Source: Alistipes sp. (GTDB lineage: Bacteria; Bacteroidota; Bacteroidia; Bacteroidales; Rikenellaceae). Taken from it: DNA of 49,895 bases. Below the pieces are notes generated by a model, which saw only the letters and a program-made list of their open reading frames with translations, had not been told where the DNA came from and searched no databases. Of the stretch, positions 12,613 through 49,412 are shown piece after piece; within the stretch, counting starts at the first letter, position 1, and each line of letters begins with the position of its first letter. The stretch lies in NCBI GenBank assembly GCA_017935185.1, contig JAGBIC010000037.1, positions 1 through 49,895 on the forward strand. Direction: 5' to 3'. The translations under genes and the position numbers were made by a program.

Positions 12613-13524
12613 TTACTCTAAGTCAGCTTTATCTGTTTCCCATTCGCTTACTGCGGGCAATGACCAAGCCTTACCCTCTAATGCGCTTGGAGCCGTTGAA
12701 GTTGTCTTGTACCAATAGTTTTTTGCAGTATTGCTATATAACGCGTAATACAATGTTGTGCCTGTATATTCTTTAGCAATCGACGTAAAGAAAAACGAAA
12801 CATCTTCTCCATTTTTAACACCAAGTGATTCCCAACTTCCAAACGTAGCAATCTTTGCATCACCTTCATTTATTTTACAGCCCAATGTCCTGTTACCACC
12901 CTGGAATAATCCTGGATGATTTAATGAACCATCAACAAATTCTGAATAGATATCCAGATACCACACCTCACCAACTGCAGGAGTCAGCCCCTTGACTGAT
13001 ATCTGGAATGCATCGGCAGGACGAGCCAATGTGATAGTACCAATGTTCAATTCATTGCCAGAAATAGTGTAAGTTCCATTAGCCGACATAAACTCACCTC
13101 CTGCATATGTATCAAATAGAGGATAATCAAATATATGGTAATTTTCGGCATCTATATGAATATTATCCGGATAATGGTAAGCAACATAGATGCCACCATC
13201 AACAAATCTTGCCAAATTCTCAGGAAGGTTACTTGCATCTACGTTCCAACCCTCAGCTGTTTTGGTAAGTTTTACGGTGTTTGCGTTTTCATAAGGTGCA
13301 ATCCACGCTGTACTACTCTCTTCTGCACTGCCCTTGAATATAATAAGAATCTCATCTCCAACAGCCCAATCACTCTTCACAGCACGAGAGCCATTATCAA
13401 AACCTGCCTTATCGGCAACCGCAAAGTTTACTTTTATCTTGTTGTCAACGGCATTATCATCCTTCTGACAACCTACAAAACCCATAACTGCCAATGCCAC
13501 GACAGCCATTAAAATCTTTTTCAT
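12613..13524 (-). CDS. Fimbrillin-like (Mfa-like) surface lipoprotein, copy 1
   Basis: A 303-aa lipoprotein (lipobox GFVGC, Cys19) whose N-terminal part fits the fimbrillin/Mfa_like style: SRAVKSDW then GDEILIIF (GDE at 56-58) and a repeated beta-strand pattern. It is a paralogue of the lipoprotein at 48591-49412: both have Cys19, KDD just after it, W..GDE, and GTYT.SGN followed by an ITL strand. It begins 36 nt after the 40-aa peptide gene with no promoter between, so the two are probably co-transcribed. Role unknown: a surface adhesin or a receptor/immunity partner of the peptide are both possible. The family assignment is by pattern only. Confidence 0.7.
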   Translation of the reverse strand: MKKILMAVVALAVMGFVGCQKDDNAVDNKIKVNFAVADKAGFDNGSRAVKSDWAVGDEILIIFKGSAEESSTAWIAPYENANTVKLTKTAEGWNVDASNLPENLARFVDGGIYVAYHYPDNIHIDAENYHIFDYPLFDTYAGGEFMSANGTYTISGNELNIGTITLARPADAFQISVKGLTPAVGEVWYLDIYSEFVDGSLNHPGLFQGGNRTLGCKINEGDAKIATFGSWESLGVKNGEDVSFFFTSIAKEYTGTTLYYALYSNTAKNYWYKTTSTAPSALEGKAWSLPAVSEWETDKADLE

Positions 13525-13560: not shown

Positions 13561-13683
13561 TTAAAGAGGTATTTCACCACCCGGCCATTTGGGATAGTCT
13601 CCTCCCGATTGTGCAAAACCTGCCTCCACCTGCACCTCCAGTACCTCAACCTCGGGTGCTACATAATTTAATTTGTTCTCCAT
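13561..13683 (-). CDS. Small peptide, 40 aa, paired with fimbrillin-like lipoprotein (copy 1)
   Basis: An ATG at 13683 opens a 40-codon frame. Residues 6-16 read NYVAPEVEVLE and residues 22-27 read GFAQSG; the tail is DYPKW, then PGG, ending EIPL. It matches the 43-aa peptide at 48211-48342 at about 22 of its first 27 positions, while the tails differ. Such conservation at a distant locus, with the same leader design and the same type of downstream lipoprotein, supports real translation. There is no Sec signal or membrane segment. The GG at 27-28, after a hydrophobic/acidic leader, resembles a double-glycine processing site (inference). I do not recognise a named family. Confidence 0.8.
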   Translation of the reverse strand: MENKLNYVAPEVEVLEVQVEAGFAQSGGDYPKWPGGEIPL

Positions 13684-13731
13684 AACAGTTTGATTTATTA
13701 AAGTTGATAACTAATAGACACAACAATTCGC

Positions 13732-13753
13732 CTCGCATAAACTAATATGCGAG
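13732..13753 (-). promoter_or_regulatory. Leader hairpin before peptide copy 1
   Basis: A perfect 8-bp stem (CTCGCATA with TATGCGAG) and a 6-nt loop, 48 nt before the peptide ATG. No U-run follows, so it is a leader structure rather than a terminator. It matches in size and place the hairpin at 48150-48170. Confidence 0.6.
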
Positions 13754-13795
13754 TTTTGCATTGTAAATATTTGATTTACAGTTATTTAATAAATA

Positions 13796-13804
13796 GGGGG
13801 GGGG
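13796..13804 (-). repeat. Nine-C tract (sense strand) in peptide leader, copy 1
   Basis: Exactly nine G on the plus strand, so nine C in the predicted mRNA, about 90 nt after the -7 box and 112 nt before the ATG. Homopolymers of this size are prone to slipped-strand length change. Confidence 0.9.
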
Positions 13805-13814
13805 TGCTTAAACA

Positions 13815-13844
13815 AGTTTCGGGTTTTAGACCAAACCCGAAACT
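13815..13844 (-). promoter_or_regulatory. 12-bp leader stem-loop before the C9 tract
   Basis: A perfect 12-bp stem (13815-13826 with 13833-13844) and a 6-nt loop, ending 10 nt before the C9 tract in the sense direction. No clean U-run follows. It could be an attenuator or a protein-binding element; copy 2 has no equally clear counterpart. Confidence 0.5.
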
Positions 13845-13894
13845 ATTATGTAACATATTGTTTATCACCCTCATAGAATACTGACTATAATGGA

Positions 13895-13925
13895 CAAATA
13901 TAATTACTTTATAATAAAAAAGCAA
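13895..13925 (-). promoter_or_regulatory. Promoter of peptide/lipoprotein unit, copy 1
   Basis: On the minus strand: TTG (13925-13923), a 20-nt spacer and TATATTTG (13902-13895). It matches the Bacteroidota consensus and has the same spacing as the promoter at 47977-48007. It implies a leader of about 205 nt. Confidence 0.7.
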
Positions 13926-31457: not shown

Positions 31458-34400
31458 TTAGAGATTAATATTCACACCAACGTTAAATACTCGCTGGATA
31501 GGATATCCCAAACCGTTGCCGGCCATCTCGGGATCCCACAACTTGAATTTCGAGAATGTCAACAGGTTAGTACCGCTAACGTATACACGGAAACGTGCAT
31601 CACGCCACTTGGGAACGCGGATTGTATAACCTACCTCAACAGACTTCAGACGCAAGAATGAACCATCGCGCATCCACCATGTACTACTCTGGGCATTATT
31701 TTCCAAAGTAGTTGTACTGAAACGGGGGTGCAATGCATAGATATCGCGATTATCCTCCGACCAATGGCTGTCGGCATAAACCTTCAACAACTGGTGCTCG
31801 TTTACGAAAGGTGTGGTTGCATTGTAATCAATCCAGAATGACTCACGTGCCAGACCCTGGAAGAAGCAAGAGAAATCGAAATTCTTCTTACCGAATGAAA
31901 CACCGAAACCATAAACAATCTCAGGAGTTTGAGGATAACCGATAGGCACCTTATCCAATGATGAAATCTGACCATCACCATTCACATCGTAGTACTTGAT
32001 ATCACCGGCGATATAATCACCGAAGTTCTGATAAGGTGAGTTAGCAACCTCAATATCGTCAACGAACAAGTTCTCGGCCAAGTAACCCCATCTCTGGCTC
32101 AAAGGATAGCCTACACGGCTCAACCATGGCGCATCATCGTAACGAGGCTCCTCATAAACAAGATACTCACTTGTTGAATAGGTGAAGTTACCACGAGCCT
32201 GAATCCACCATCCGCTGGGGAACGCCTTATTTACGTCCAACGACATATCGATACCCTGACCCTTGGCCTGACCGATATTCGCGCTGGTAGCGGCCATAAG
32301 ACCCATACCCGCGGGCACATCCTGACGATCCATCAAGATATTCTCACGCTTCTCGTGGTAGTACTCCATCTGCAACTCGATTGCATTGAAAAGTTCCAAC
32401 TCAAATCCGATATTACTCTTCTTTGAAACCTCCCATGTAATCTGGTTGTTGGCATAACGGCTCAACGAGATACCGTTTATTGTATAACGGTTGGATGCGG
32501 GGCCGAATACATATTTATATGAGCTATTATTCATATTAACCTCTGAAAGATAGAGGAAACGTGAGCTACCAATAGCATCGTTACCAACCAAACCATAAGT
32601 ACCCTTAATCTTCAACTTCGAGATGACCTCCTTCAAGCTCTCTCCCCAATAAGGCTCGTTAGACACCATCCAACCAAAACCTGCTGATGGGAAGAAACCC
32701 CAACGGTGATTAGCCGAGAAACGCTCTGAACCGTTGTATCCGAAGTTTGCCTCAAGGAAATAGCGGTTGTCGTAGCCATAAGTTGCACGACCTGAAAGGC
32801 CTAGGTTACGATACGGCAATGAAGCCTGAAGCGAACCGGCATTGGTATTGATATTATGGTGTGCTTGGAATACCAGCAAAGCACCGAATGAATGTTTCTC
32901 GTTGTTGGTAGTGCGGTTATAGTTCACAGCACCCTCAAAATATGTTGAAGCGGTAACACTCTTCTCGCCCTCTCGATACTCCAAATACTCAGTACCAGAC
33001 TTATCGTTCAACGCCAACAAATCGTATGTGTTAGCATAACGATCGTAGTTATCGGCCTGATAATAGAACGGGTGGTAGAAACGTGTTGCATCAGCATATG
33101 CATAACGCTTGAGGTTAATCATTGCACGGGCTGACAGACCCTTGGTAATGAAATCGAAGTTCTGCTTAAGCTCAAACTGGGTTGAAAGTGTAGTACGAGA
33201 ATACTCCTTGTAACCCTTCACCATATCGGCATATGGGTTATTATATTTAGCATCACCGTAGTTACCGAAAAGAATATGACCTACATTCTGATATTTCTCA
33301 GACTTGGGATAGAAAGCAGGGAACAATACGGGGTTAGACGAAATAATCTGGTTGTAAACGGCTGTACCACCATTCAACGGGCCATTATAGTCGGCGAACT
33401 GACCATGCATACGAACAATCATCTCTGTCGATTTTGTCAAGTTGATATTGACATTAGCACGCAATGAGTAGTTCTTAAGGTTAATGTTATTGTTGAAGTT
33501 GTTCTCGCCGGCATCCTTCAAGTTACCACCCTCATCCGAGATAGAAGCAGCGACATAATAACGTGAGACCTTACCACCACCGCTGATTGAGAGGTTAGCA
33601 CGCTGCGTAACTGCCACATCCTTCAACAACATATCCTTCCAATTCACAGCAGGATAGTAATATGGATTAGTTCCCAACGCTGTGTTGTCAATCTTCTCCT
33701 GAGAGTAACGCAACAAAGCAAGAGGATCGCGTGATGTTGTTGCATCGTTGGCCATACGCATATATGTAACGGGATCGGCAAACTCTACCTGATCTGTCGG
33801 AGTCGAGACAGATGTCTCATAACGGAAGCTTATTTTAGCCTTACCCTCGTCACCCTCTTTCGTGGTAACCAAAATCACACCATTCGCACCACGCGCACCA
33901 TAAAGCGCAGTAGCGGTAGCATCCTTCATGATTGAGAAGCTGGCGATATCGTCAACATTCAAACGAGCAAGGTCGGTAGATGTCATCTCGATATTATCAA
34001 TCAAAATCAAAGGATCAACCTTATAACCGAAGGTTGTTACACCACGAATAAAGAAGTCGGCATTATCCTGACCGGGCTCACCACTACGCTGATATGAGAT
34101 CAAACCTGCCACACGACCTGCGAACGATGTGGTGAAGTTACTTGAAGGAACTTTCAACTCTTTCGGGTTGATAGTACCCACCGAACCAATCACCGACTCT
34201 TTCTTCTGCTTTGCAAAGGCCACAACAGTAACCTCCTCCAAGGCACTTGCCGAAGTCTTGAGTTTGATATTCTTAAATTGTGCATCGGTAACAACCACCG
34301 ACTCTTTCTGGTAACCCAAATATTCAACCTCAAGTGTAGTACCTGTCGCTACATCCAAAGTAAAGTTACCGTTGATGTCTGTTGTCACACCTTTGGTGTC

Positions 34401-34589
34401 ACCCTTAATAATAATAGTCGCACCGGGCAATGGATTATCGTTTTCATCGAGAACACGTCCATTAACTGTGATTGTCTTTTTATCTTGCTGATTATCATTC
34501 GCAAACAAGTCGATTGGCGAAATAATCATGCAACACAATGACAACACTAAAATTAAGTACGACTGAACATACTTGTAAAATTGCCACAT
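31458..34589 (-). CDS. SusC/RagA-family TonB-linked outer-membrane transporter
   Basis: A 1043-aa TonB-dependent transporter. After the signal comes a CarboxypepD_reg-like domain (ITVNGRVLDENDNPLPGATI), a TonB box region (LEEVTVVAFA), a plug domain with GARGANGVILVTTKEG, and a 22-strand barrel ending FNVGVNINL. There is no STN signalling domain, so ECF sigma/anti-sigma control through SusC is unlikely. It imports oligosaccharides from a polymer not identifiable here; the alginate-lyase-family gene nearby is a hint toward uronic-acid glycans. It is the first gene of the operon. Confidence 0.97.
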   Translation of the reverse strand: MWQFYKYVQSYLILVLSLCCMIISPIDLFANDNQQDKKTITVNGRVLDENDNPLPGATIIIKGDTKGVTTDINGNFTLDVATGTTLEVEYLGYQKESVVVTDAQFKNIKLKTSASALEEVTVVAFAKQKKESVIGSVGTINPKELKVPSSNFTTSFAGRVAGLISYQRSGEPGQDNADFFIRGVTTFGYKVDPLILIDNIEMTSTDLARLNVDDIASFSIMKDATATALYGARGANGVILVTTKEGDEGKAKISFRYETSVSTPTDQVEFADPVTYMRMANDATTSRDPLALLRYSQEKIDNTALGTNPYYYPAVNWKDMLLKDVAVTQRANLSISGGGKVSRYYVAASISDEGGNLKDAGENNFNNNINLKNYSLRANVNINLTKSTEMIVRMHGQFADYNGPLNGGTAVYNQIISSNPVLFPAFYPKSEKYQNVGHILFGNYGDAKYNNPYADMVKGYKEYSRTTLSTQFELKQNFDFITKGLSARAMINLKRYAYADATRFYHPFYYQADNYDRYANTYDLLALNDKSGTEYLEYREGEKSVTASTYFEGAVNYNRTTNNEKHSFGALLVFQAHHNINTNAGSLQASLPYRNLGLSGRATYGYDNRYFLEANFGYNGSERFSANHRWGFFPSAGFGWMVSNEPYWGESLKEVISKLKIKGTYGLVGNDAIGSSRFLYLSEVNMNNSSYKYVFGPASNRYTINGISLSRYANNQITWEVSKKSNIGFELELFNAIELQMEYYHEKRENILMDRQDVPAGMGLMAATSANIGQAKGQGIDMSLDVNKAFPSGWWIQARGNFTYSTSEYLVYEEPRYDDAPWLSRVGYPLSQRWGYLAENLFVDDIEVANSPYQNFGDYIAGDIKYYDVNGDGQISSLDKVPIGYPQTPEIVYGFGVSFGKKNFDFSCFFQGLARESFWIDYNATTPFVNEHQLLKVYADSHWSEDNRDIYALHPRFSTTTLENNAQSSTWWMRDGSFLRLKSVEVGYTIRVPKWRDARFRVYVSGTNLLTFSKFKLWDPEMAGNGLGYPIQRVFNVGVNINL

Positions 34590-35002
34590 AATTTTTCTCT
34601 TTAAAAAAATAAAAATTGAAGTTTAGGTTCCGGGATGTAAAAAATAGGGCACATCCCATCTTAAAAGTTTGTTGGTCAGTGTTTTTACGTTTCTACATAG
34701 GCAAATAATTTTGAATTAATATGTGGGTTAATTATCTGTTGCAAAAAATAAGTTTTACAAAATTAGGCAATTTATTATTAAAAAAAACCTTTAAATAAAA
34801 GATAAAACATGCACAAAATGACACTAAAACTATACAAAATGACATTTTCTGGGGGGGGGATTTTTGCCAATTTAGGGGGAATTTATTAAATAATTTAAAG
34901 AATTAAATCTTTGCAAGGAAAACAATTTAAAAGATTATTAAAAAATAATAAAACTCCGGAAAAACTTACAAAATGAAACCCAGCGATGCGTTACAATTAC
35001 GA
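34590..35002 (-). promoter_or_regulatory. AT-rich susC upstream region with C9 tract, hairpin and direct repeats
   Basis: No gene is seen. In susC sense order it holds: nine C (34859-34851), two direct copies of TGTCATTTTGT (34844-34834 and 34823-34813, start-to-start 21 nt), a -7-like TAATTTTG (34765-34758) without a clear -33, and a hairpin of 7 bp (34632-34638 with 34651-34657) 42 nt before the ATG. The helical-phase spacing of the direct repeats suggests a regulator site. Confidence 0.45.
34851..34859 (-). repeat. Nine-C tract (sense strand) upstream of susC
   Basis: Exactly nine G on the plus strand, 261 nt before the susC ATG. It is the same length and sense as the tracts at 13796-13804 and 48094-48102. 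Confidence 0.9.
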
Positions 35003-48093: not shown

Positions 48094-48102
48094 CCCCCCC
48101 CC
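48094..48102 (+). repeat. Nine-C tract in peptide leader, copy 2
   Basis: Exactly nine C followed by TAT (copy 1 also has C9 then TAT), 86 nt after the -7 box and 108 nt before the ATG. Confidence 0.9.
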
Positions 48103-48149: not shown

Positions 48150-48170
48150 CCCGATGACAACTTCATCGGG
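48150..48170 (+). promoter_or_regulatory. Leader hairpin before peptide copy 2
   Basis: A perfect 8-bp stem (CCCGATGA with TCATCGGG) and a 5-nt loop, 40 nt before the ATG and 47 nt after C9. No U-run follows. Confidence 0.6.
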
Positions 48171-48210: not shown

Positions 48211-48342
48211 ATGGAGAAAAAAAACTATGTTGCACCCGAAGTTGAGGTGCTGGAGATTGCAGTAGAGCAAGGCTTTGCTCAAAGTGGAGTTGGCGGAGAG
48301 CCTAAGTTTGGCGGATTTGGCCCTGAGGATGATTGGTCTTAA
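48211..48342 (+). CDS. Small peptide, 43 aa, paired with fimbrillin-like lipoprotein (copy 2)
   Basis: An ATG at 48211 opens a 43-codon frame. Residues 5-15 read NYVAPEVEVLE and 21-26 read GFAQSG; the tail has VGG, EPKFGGFG and ends DDWS. It pairs with the 40-aa peptide at 13561-13683: near-identical first halves, and tails that share only a PK-aromatic start and glycines. No Sec signal or membrane segment is seen. Cleavage after the GG at 28-29 would release a 14-residue tail; in copy 1 the same rule releases 12 residues (inference). No transporter gene lies nearby. The lipoprotein gene follows after 248 nt. Confidence 0.8.
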   Translation: MEKKNYVAPEVEVLEIAVEQGFAQSGVGGEPKFGGFGPEDDWS

Positions 48343-48432
48343 ACCAAAAAATTAAGTTCAAACTAAAAAATGGAAAATATATAGATTGAATGTTGTAGAG
48401 TTCGTCACCCCACCGAGCCGATAGGCGAGGAA

Positions 48433-48485
48433 TGGAGTCTCTATCGTCGATTTCAGAAAATATCTATACAATATTAGAGATTCCA
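48433..48485 (+). promoter_or_regulatory. Intercistronic hairpin between peptide and lipoprotein genes
   Basis: TGGAGTCTCTA (48433-48443) can pair with TAGAGATTCCA (48475-48485), 11 bp with one G-U pair, over a 31-nt loop. The 248-nt gap shows no promoter, so the hairpin is probably in the mRNA and may set the ratio of peptide to lipoprotein. Confidence 0.45.
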
Positions 48486-48590
48486 ATCATCACTCACTTT
48501 CTGCTCGTGATGTGGAATGACGTAATGCAAATACAACATGAAAGTATATATTTCCGAAGAAAATTAACTATTAAATTACCAATTAGAGCG

Positions 48591-49412
48591 ATGAAAAAAT
48601 TTATTTATGCAATAAGCGCACTTGCCGTAATGTTTGCCGCAAGCTGCTCAAAAGATGATTCAAATGCACCTGCCGAATATCAGGTGGTTGTAAATATGGA
48701 TAAGCCGAGCTTTGGCGAAGGTGTTCGTGCCGCACGTACCACATGGGAGAATGGCGACGAAGTGTATGTAGTTTTCAATGGAGATGTTGAAGCTGCAAAA
48801 TATTTGAAACTCACCTATAATGCAGGCACATGGTCTTCAGAGTGGGCCGGAACGACCGCCGCAGAGGTAGCAGCCAAAGAGACCAAAACTTTGGCGGCAG
48901 GTTATATGAATGTCCCCCTTGCGAAAGCTCCTTATTATTATTCTTTTATTGATGCATTGAAGTTTGATTCAAGCATCTCTTCAGTTGGTGTGTGTGTTAT
49001 GCTGTGCAATAATGGTACATATACCGTTTCTGGCAACACCATTACTTTGGATATTACAATCAAACCCGTGGTTGCTCAAGTGACAGTTCGCGGTATCGAT
49101 GTAGCGGATAACTGGGTGCTCAAATGTGATAAATTAACACGAATTCCTGACTTCTCTGTTTCTACGAATATGTGGATTGGTGAATCAGCAGGCGATCATG
49201 ATGAAGAGCTTTATGGCTTTGCAAATACGGATGGTGTTTCGTTCTATGGTAGACCTTATCAAACATCTACTCCCACATCGTTGACATTTACTCTTACAAA
49301 TGGCGTGAAGACCTACACTCGCACATTTACCAACAAGACTCTCGCAAAAGGCGATGCTATCATTATGGATGGCCCGTCTGCCTCTTCTGATTGGGTGGAC
49401 GTAACAGAGTAA
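48591..49412 (+). CDS. Fimbrillin-like (Mfa-like) surface lipoprotein, copy 2
   Basis: A 273-aa lipoprotein (FAASC, Cys19) with RAARTTW then GDEVYVVF (GDE at 55-57), and GTYTVSGNTITLD, all aligned with the 303-aa copy at 12613-13524. I start it at 48591, where a typical lipoprotein signal begins (MKKFIYAISA); the open frame to 48432 adds 53 residues without features. It is probably made from the same mRNA as the 43-aa peptide. The copies differ in length and in their C-terminal half, as expected for surface proteins under diversifying pressure. Function unknown. Confidence 0.72.
   Translation: MKKFIYAISALAVMFAASCSKDDSNAPAEYQVVVNMDKPSFGEGVRAARTTWENGDEVYVVFNGDVEAAKYLKLTYNAGTWSSEWAGTTAAEVAAKETKTLAAGYMNVPLAKAPYYYSFIDALKFDSSISSVGVCVMLCNNGTYTVSGNTITLDITIKPVVAQVTVRGIDVADNWVLKCDKLTRIPDFSVSTNMWIGESAGDHDEELYGFANTDGVSFYGRPYQTSTPTSLTFTLTNGVKTYTRTFTNKTLAKGDAIIMDGPSASSDWVDVTE

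Follow-up and report, generated by a model that had tools for sequence, protein, structure and literature searches.

Short peptides encoded beside surface proteins in Alistipes: candidate precursors of a dispersed LPP-like RiPP system

Two Peptide Loci in an Alistipes Contig

The window, i.e., the whole stretch of DNA analyzed here (49,895 nt; contig JAGBIC010000037.1, assembly GCA_017935185.1), stems from a gut bacterium, an Alistipes sp. represented by a fragmentary MAG of 49 contigs (G000, 75% complete). It harbors two short open reading frames (ORFs) on opposite strands, each followed by a lipoprotein gene. The features are as follows.

12613–13524, minus strand: partner lipoprotein 1, 303 aa, 36 nt 3′ of peptide 1
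13561–13683, minus strand: proposed precursor peptide gene 1, 40 aa, one of 12 paralogues
13564–13605, minus strand: variable tail of peptide 1, residues 27–40, proposed core
13606–13665, minus strand: conserved YxxP...GFAxS stretch of peptide 1, residues 7–26, proposed leader and phospho-acceptor Ser26
13732–13753, minus strand: 8-bp hairpin 70 nt upstream of peptide 1
13796–13804, minus strand: C9 tract upstream of peptide 1
48094–48102, plus strand: C9 tract upstream of peptide 2
48150–48170, plus strand: 8-bp hairpin 61 nt upstream of peptide 2
48211–48342, plus strand: proposed precursor peptide gene 2, 43 aa
48226–48285, plus strand: conserved YxxP...GFAxS stretch of peptide 2, residues 6–25
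48286–48339, plus strand: variable tail of peptide 2, proposed core
48343–48590, plus strand: 248-nt spacer between peptide 2 and lipoprotein 2, with a repeat-like stretch
48591–49412, plus strand: partner lipoprotein 2 (signal peptide start at 48591; mechanical ORF start at 48432)

Both window peptide genes are real. The first-pass annotation, made from the sequence of the window, described them accurately: the ORFs have the lengths and orientations it gave, the peptides that it described as sharing about 22 of their first 27 residues are identical in 22 of 27 columns when aligned by eye, and BLASTP shows the lipoproteins that it called paralogous to be related, at 29% over 211 aa (E 1e-15). 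The repeat-like stretch in the second spacer gives a 119-nt alignment (76%) to a sister genome (L195:14871-14972), and the orthologous unit of the sister genome has a spacer of 49 nt where the copy at 48211 has 248 nt.

Pfam and NCBIfam scans of the peptides return no family over its cut-off, the sole hint being the paeninodin lasso model (E 0.13). Searches of the PDB with the peptide and with the family profile, as well as a plasmid search, give no match. Partner lipoprotein 1 has no Pfam family over cut-off, and neither window partner matches the Mfa_like_1 model (PF13149). Rfam reports only a tRNA in the window, with no match for the upstream hairpins.

A Multicopy Peptide Family with a Constant N-Terminal Half

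The two loci had been described as twins. Both exist, but the search of the host genome finds at least 12 copies in open frames, dispersed over the assembly. In their alignment, Y6, P9, E12, E19, G21, F22, A23, and S25 are invariant in 12 of 12. The profile built from these 12 rows matches 23 genomes in a set of 40 relatives (own genome included): 21 of the 25 members of the genus sample (own plus 24 genomes), G032, and, marginally, G038 (E 0.098). A 44-row profile applied to an even draw of 392 genomes across the order matches 11, own included. A scan of named genome contigs yields at least 587 pattern matches; among the matches listed, 106 are relatives, from which 80 loci were kept. Their hosts, among the matches listed, are Alistipes and Rikenellaceae MAGs, Bacteroides, Bacteroidaceae, Mediterranea, and others, including the isolates B. 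ndongoniae and M. massiliensis. Homologs with intact frames elsewhere, on which the first-pass annotation had staked its proposal, are thus present as open frames in other Bacteroidales. Two contigs titled Lachnospira (L115 and L141) carry Bacteroides-like units of peptide and lipoprotein and are probably misbinned.

The constant half is under purifying selection as a protein, with a leader pN/pS of 0.15 over 181 leader pairs more than 75% identical at the DNA level, pairs that are not independent of each other. The Tyr and Pro of the YxxP motif occur in 91 of 91 peptides, and the stretch from this Tyr to the terminal Ser or Thr measures exactly 20 residues in 91 of 92, with Ser at its end in 89 and Thr in 2 of the 91. 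The conserved Ser persists despite switches of its codon between the TCN and AGY families, both of which are in use. In 24 more distant peptides, picked by regular expression, the stretch has 20 residues in 23 cases and 21 in one, ending in Ser (22) or Thr (2); in a cassette-linked peptide of G040, it has 19 residues as counted by eye.

The C-terminal tails differ among copies. Among the matches listed, the tails of the 80 peptides have a mean length of 14 residues; a net negative charge is seen in 78, Cys in none, and an aromatic residue within the last five positions in 55. At one locus (L120), the peptide ORF stops directly after GFAGS and has neither a tail nor a lipoprotein within 600 nt.

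Upstream elements recur in the host genome. Runs of at least eight C (or G) occur at only three places in the window, namely the two listed tracts and a run of nine at 34851-34859, the latter 261 nt upstream of a 1043-aa ORF (31458-34589). In 7 of the 12 own peptide genes, a tract of nine or ten C is located 94–155 nt upstream; of the 12 C-runs of at least eight counted in 167 kb of own sequence, most of it selected around these loci, 9 are at such upstream positions. The C-run is shared by just 5 of 69 loci from the scan of named contigs (among the matches listed) and is therefore a lineage feature, one that is possibly phase-variable. A G+C-rich hairpin of 6–9 bp and differing sequence is located 61–81 nt upstream of six own copies and is followed in five by a TTGT(C/T)GTG-like sequence.

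Neighboring Surface Proteins

Each of the 12 own copies is followed by a same-strand ORF with a lipoprotein signal peptide, as read by eye. The gaps, given as first-ATG distances, are 5–36 nt in ten cases, a 7-nt overlap in one, and the 248 nt at 48211. The partners range from ~270 to 1173 aa and carry LRR_5 (BspA-type LRR), M64 peptidase, BACON_2, LRR_4, GLUG, or Mfa_like_1 domains. PF13149 is over cut-off in 2 of 10 scanned own partners; a match on C23 is over cut-off in one search but is missing when that ORF is scanned with hmmscan. Of the eight places in the genome with a Mfa_like_1 match, five are not preceded by a peptide, and the pairing is therefore not a property of all fimbrillins. 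At L061, a peptide is located between two fimbrillin-like genes, followed by a 1173-aa lipoprotein with LRR_5 and M64 peptidase domains.

The association extends to other hosts. Of the 80 loci kept among the matches listed, one ends at a contig edge; a lipoprotein-like next ORF lies within 100 nt at 68 of the other 79, compared with 11 of 201 other ORFs of at least 100 aa (Fisher p 3e-41, with loci from one genome not being independent). The median gap is 32.5 nt (among the matches listed). The 11 misses comprise lipoproteins at 153 and 178 nt (L100 and L143), one peptide ahead of a PqqD-like and then a kinase-like ORF (L106), the tail-less ORF (L120), a contig edge just upstream (L127), and six peptides behind a large protein gene (L081, L099, L109, L123, L129, and L138). 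The peptide starts 20–107 nt after a large ORF at L081, L099, L109, L123, L129, L147, and L158; four of these seven upstream proteins have a T9SS type A sorting domain over cut-off, and others have LRR_5, Big_2, or dockerin domains. At L138, the preceding gene itself encodes a lipoprotein. Since peptides also lie behind large secreted proteins, the constant feature is a neighboring surface or secreted protein. The linkage of homologs to lipoproteins, which had been named as a check, is borne out by the counts among the matches listed (68/79 versus 11/201), but the partner need not be a lipoprotein because a large secreted protein may precede the peptide instead.

The first-pass annotation further expected each peptide to have a matched partner. 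In Mantel tests over 65 pairs, the tail correlates with the partner N-domain (rho 0.149, p 0.003) and not with the C-domain (rho 0.038, p 0.14), but the leader correlates as highly with the N-domain (rho 0.145, p 0.003) and also with the C-domain (rho 0.166, p 0.003). Because the tail tracks the lipoprotein N-domain no better than the leader does, the matched partner is weakly supported; a special tail–partner match was rejected, and a lock-and-key pair would be conjectural. Searches of an open-licence PMC set found no report of such peptides beside fimbrillin-like lipoproteins.

A Candidate Maturation Gene Set

Three exceptional loci (L106, L129, and L166) revealed a set of genes encoding PqqD-like, HprK-like, S24/signal-peptidase-like, NTP_transf_5, and ABC proteins, with precursors inside or beside the enzyme cassettes at L106, L129, and L166/L246. 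All five types, the kinase being tentatively identified, are also encoded in the host genome. The set resembles that of the linear polyphosphorylated peptides (LPP), a RiPP class, such that the constant leader and variable tail, read earlier as the mark of a processed peptide, can now be tied to a specific maturation gene set as described in the text of PMC13381572. Another small ORF with a YxxP stretch, unrelated in appearance, lies at the cassette locus L256, and a second set of PqqD, NTP_transf_5, and kinase genes is found inside exopolysaccharide-type loci at L201 and L216 (G008:C58 and G024:C1).

The own PqqD-like gene is located on C41, flanked by recQ on one side and by a small ORF and a receptor gene on the other. 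Its product scores 45.1 bits with PF05402 (cut-off 23.4) and thereby matches the discrete RRE of LPP. The nearest solved structure for the PqqD copy of G004 is TfuB1, a weak match (E 0.007), and the PqqD match at L106 is also weak (E 0.029, on the first 60 residues).

The own kinase and protease genes adjoin on C47. Neither product reaches a family cut-off in Pfam or NCBIfam, and their naming therefore rests on motifs, weak matches, and cassette context. The kinase has conserved GESGTGKST and NDDSP motifs, a position in the cassette, and sub-threshold matches to PEPCK/HprK. The protease, which matches PF00717 below cut-off, has Ser31, His70, and Asp85 invariant in 10 aligned sequences, and its profile reaches the signal peptidase SEC11C (E 1.7e-5).

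The nucleotidyltransferase gene (NTP_transf_5) is on C29 (L207:6467-7435); its N-terminal part is interrupted, and intact copies occur in related genomes. The MsbA-like ABC gene (61% identity) lies on C32, away from the kinase. Within the genus, the kinase gene adjoins the protease gene at 21 of 21 loci and an ABC gene at 19 of 21. At 28 kinase loci elsewhere in the order, PqqD is within the flank in 19, the protease in 22, and a peptide profile match in one. The proposal of a two-gene system survives in part: peptide and surface lipoprotein do form a repeated unit, but with its enzymes encoded at other places in the genome the system is not a two-gene one.

Co-occurrence of Peptides and Enzymes

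In the 40 relatives, PF05402 is found in 30 genomes, and within the genus in exactly the 21 of 25 that bear the peptide. The kinase profile matches 23 of the 40, i.e., the same 21 genus genomes, G032, and, weakly, G035. PF14907, the nucleotidyltransferase family, is present in 27 of the 40, including 20 of the 21 peptide-bearing genus genomes (not G023) and none of the four peptide-less ones. Of the 15 genomes outside the genus, 9 contain PqqD, and a peptide match accompanies it only in G032 and, marginally, in G038.

The 21/4 split in the genus has an exact p of 8e-5. In a RecQ tree, three of the four peptide-less genomes fall in one clade; two changes are needed, one not being excluded, and the split therefore represents one or two losses, involving several unlinked loci, rather than four. 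In the host genome, the co-missing genes are spread over four contigs.

The association also holds across the order. With the own genome excluded, the kinase is present in 9 of 10 peptide-bearing genomes, compared with 40 of 381 without a peptide match (Fisher p 3.5e-8); the one peptide-bearing genome with no kinase match is G171. Outside the own genome, 40 of the 49 kinase-bearing genomes have no detected peptide, and these may harbor divergent precursors or put the kinase to another use.

Proposed Pathway and Alternatives

The window peptides are probably precursors of an LPP-like RiPP system, matured in trans by one machine and each co-encoded with a surface protein. By analogy with LPP chemistry, the stand-alone PqqD-like RRE (C41) would bind the leader via its Y-x-x-P motif, and the HprK-like kinase (C47) would phosphorylate the near-invariant Ser of GFAxS. 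Among the matches listed, 24 of 80 tails lack Ser and Thr, and thus only the motif residue (Thr instead of Ser in 2 of 80) could serve every member. The signal-peptidase-like Ser/His protease encoded beside the kinase would remove the leader, likely a few residues before this Ser, such that the variable part begins after, not at, the cut. The nucleotidyltransferase (C29) may modify the phosphate further, and the MsbA-like ABC protein (C32) would export the acidic core. Made together with its surface protein, mostly a fimbrillin-like lipoprotein, the modified peptide would probably act beside this partner at the surface, a speculative last step.

Cleavage right after AxS, with Ala at −3 and Ser at −1 as for a signal peptidase, was also considered. 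It is weakened by position −3, which is Ala in 69 and Glu in 6 of 80 peptides (among the matches listed), and by LPP, in which the text of PMC13381572 places the corresponding Ser, the phosphorylation site, three residues past the leader cut.

The pathway may also be pictured as going one step further, with the mature phosphopeptide joined, covalently or via a phosphate–sugar link, to the co-encoded surface protein or to a surface polysaccharide. This is an unlikely extension. If true, one central machine would give a dozen surface proteins their own variable phosphopeptide tag, and such tags would constitute a modular Bacteroidales display system using RiPP chemistry.

A different reading is that of an unprocessed small cytosolic protein acting on the synthesis or export of the surface protein, with its co-occurrence with PqqD and the kinase reflecting shared ancestry. 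The tight position beside surface-protein genes and the low number of losses within the genus (one or two) are compatible with such a protein. However, the co-missing genes lie on four contigs of the own genome, the association recurs outside the genus (9/10 versus 40/381), precursor copies adjoin the cassettes, and the leader matches the RRE-binding YxxP motif; we consider this reading rather improbable.

Lantibiotics have immunity lipoproteins, and the same maturation could in principle yield antagonistic products, the downstream lipoprotein being a cognate immunity or capture protein. Antagonism is doubtful in view of the partners, which are large and diverse (BspA-type LRR, M64 peptidase, GLUG) and are elsewhere replaced by secreted proteins upstream, even though gene pairs with variable tails are scattered in many copies. 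The patchy distribution of LPP, typical of biological conflict according to the text of PMC13381572, also speaks for it. The tails, in contrast, track the partner no more closely than the leaders do and are acidic (78 of 80 net negative, Cys in 0 of 80, among the matches listed).

The short ORF closely precedes the lipoprotein gene (median gap 32.5 nt, among the matches listed), but a regulatory leader peptide, or translation attenuator, is very improbable given that selection acts on the N-terminal amino acids while the C-terminal end varies, whereas conservation in arrest peptides is usually found close to the C-terminus, and that some copies come after the surface-protein gene.

Significance

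The arrangement suggests that each of many surface proteins is put into use together with a modified peptide of its own. Searches for RiPP precursors usually start beside their enzymes; here the precursors are many, tiny, and far away, and were found only via the leader. If the peptides are indeed precursors of an LPP-like system, the range of LPP-type chemistry includes abundant gut Bacteroidales, and the association with surface adhesins and secreted proteins provides a lead to the role of LPP. The peptides would also help to single out, among the many fimbrillin-like lipoproteins, those that act with a peptide.

Comparison with Known Systems

The partners resemble fimbrillin-like lipoproteins (Mfa_like_1, PF13149) in carrying lipoprotein signal peptides, but most match no such model.

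According to the text of PMC7533575, HprK-like kinases and nucleotidyltransferases are also tailoring enzymes of lasso peptides. Paeninodin-type lasso systems share the PqqD-like RRE, the nucleotidyltransferase, and, tentatively, the HprK-like kinase with the present set, as far as described in PMC7533575 and PMC13381572, but differ in the type of protease and in lacking the scattered precursors seen here. The lasso leader peptidase B2 (PF13471) is found in 0 of 25 genus genomes and 2 of 40 overall, and its absence from the genus led to rejection of the lasso class. No asparagine-synthetase-like macrolactam cyclase was noticed beside the cassettes viewed.

The closest system is LPP (Popov et al. 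2026), whose text calls these peptides restricted to Bacillota and their role unknown (PMC13381572); the term "bacteroid" occurs 0 times in its main text. The LPP set comprises an SpI-like protease, a discrete RRE, an HprK-like kinase, an NTP transferase, and an MsbA-like transporter, and its precursors, one to three per cluster, have a constant N-terminus and a variable C-terminus (PMC13381572). LppK phosphorylates Ser3 of the core, which is the Ser of the consensus YxxPxVLxHQxIxFETxxS, whereas LppS, which needs S29, H68, and D93, cuts the leader with the help of LppB; a Ser-to-Thr change in LppA abolished phosphorylation (PMC13381572).

Compared with these descriptions, the five protein types recur here by type, the kinase as a tentative match; they include the Ser/His/Asp signal-peptidase-like protease, in which S31, H70, and D85 would be equivalent to S29, H68, and D93 of LppS. 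The YxxP leader, a conserved Ser at nearly equal distance, and the variable C-terminus are likewise common to both. The Tyr-to-Ser spacing of 19 is, however, one residue longer than the 18 of LPP, and E[KQA]GF[A]xS stands in the place of FET. Unlike the one-cluster layout of LPP, at least 12 precursors are dispersed in the host genome and the enzymes are encoded on C41, C47, C29, and C32; clustered enzyme genes as in LPP are found in other Bacteroidales but not in this genome. Each precursor is, moreover, paired with a surface protein, which sets the family apart from LPP as described in PMC13381572. New relative to LPP are the scattered multicopy precursors, the surface-protein partner, and the occurrence in Bacteroidales.
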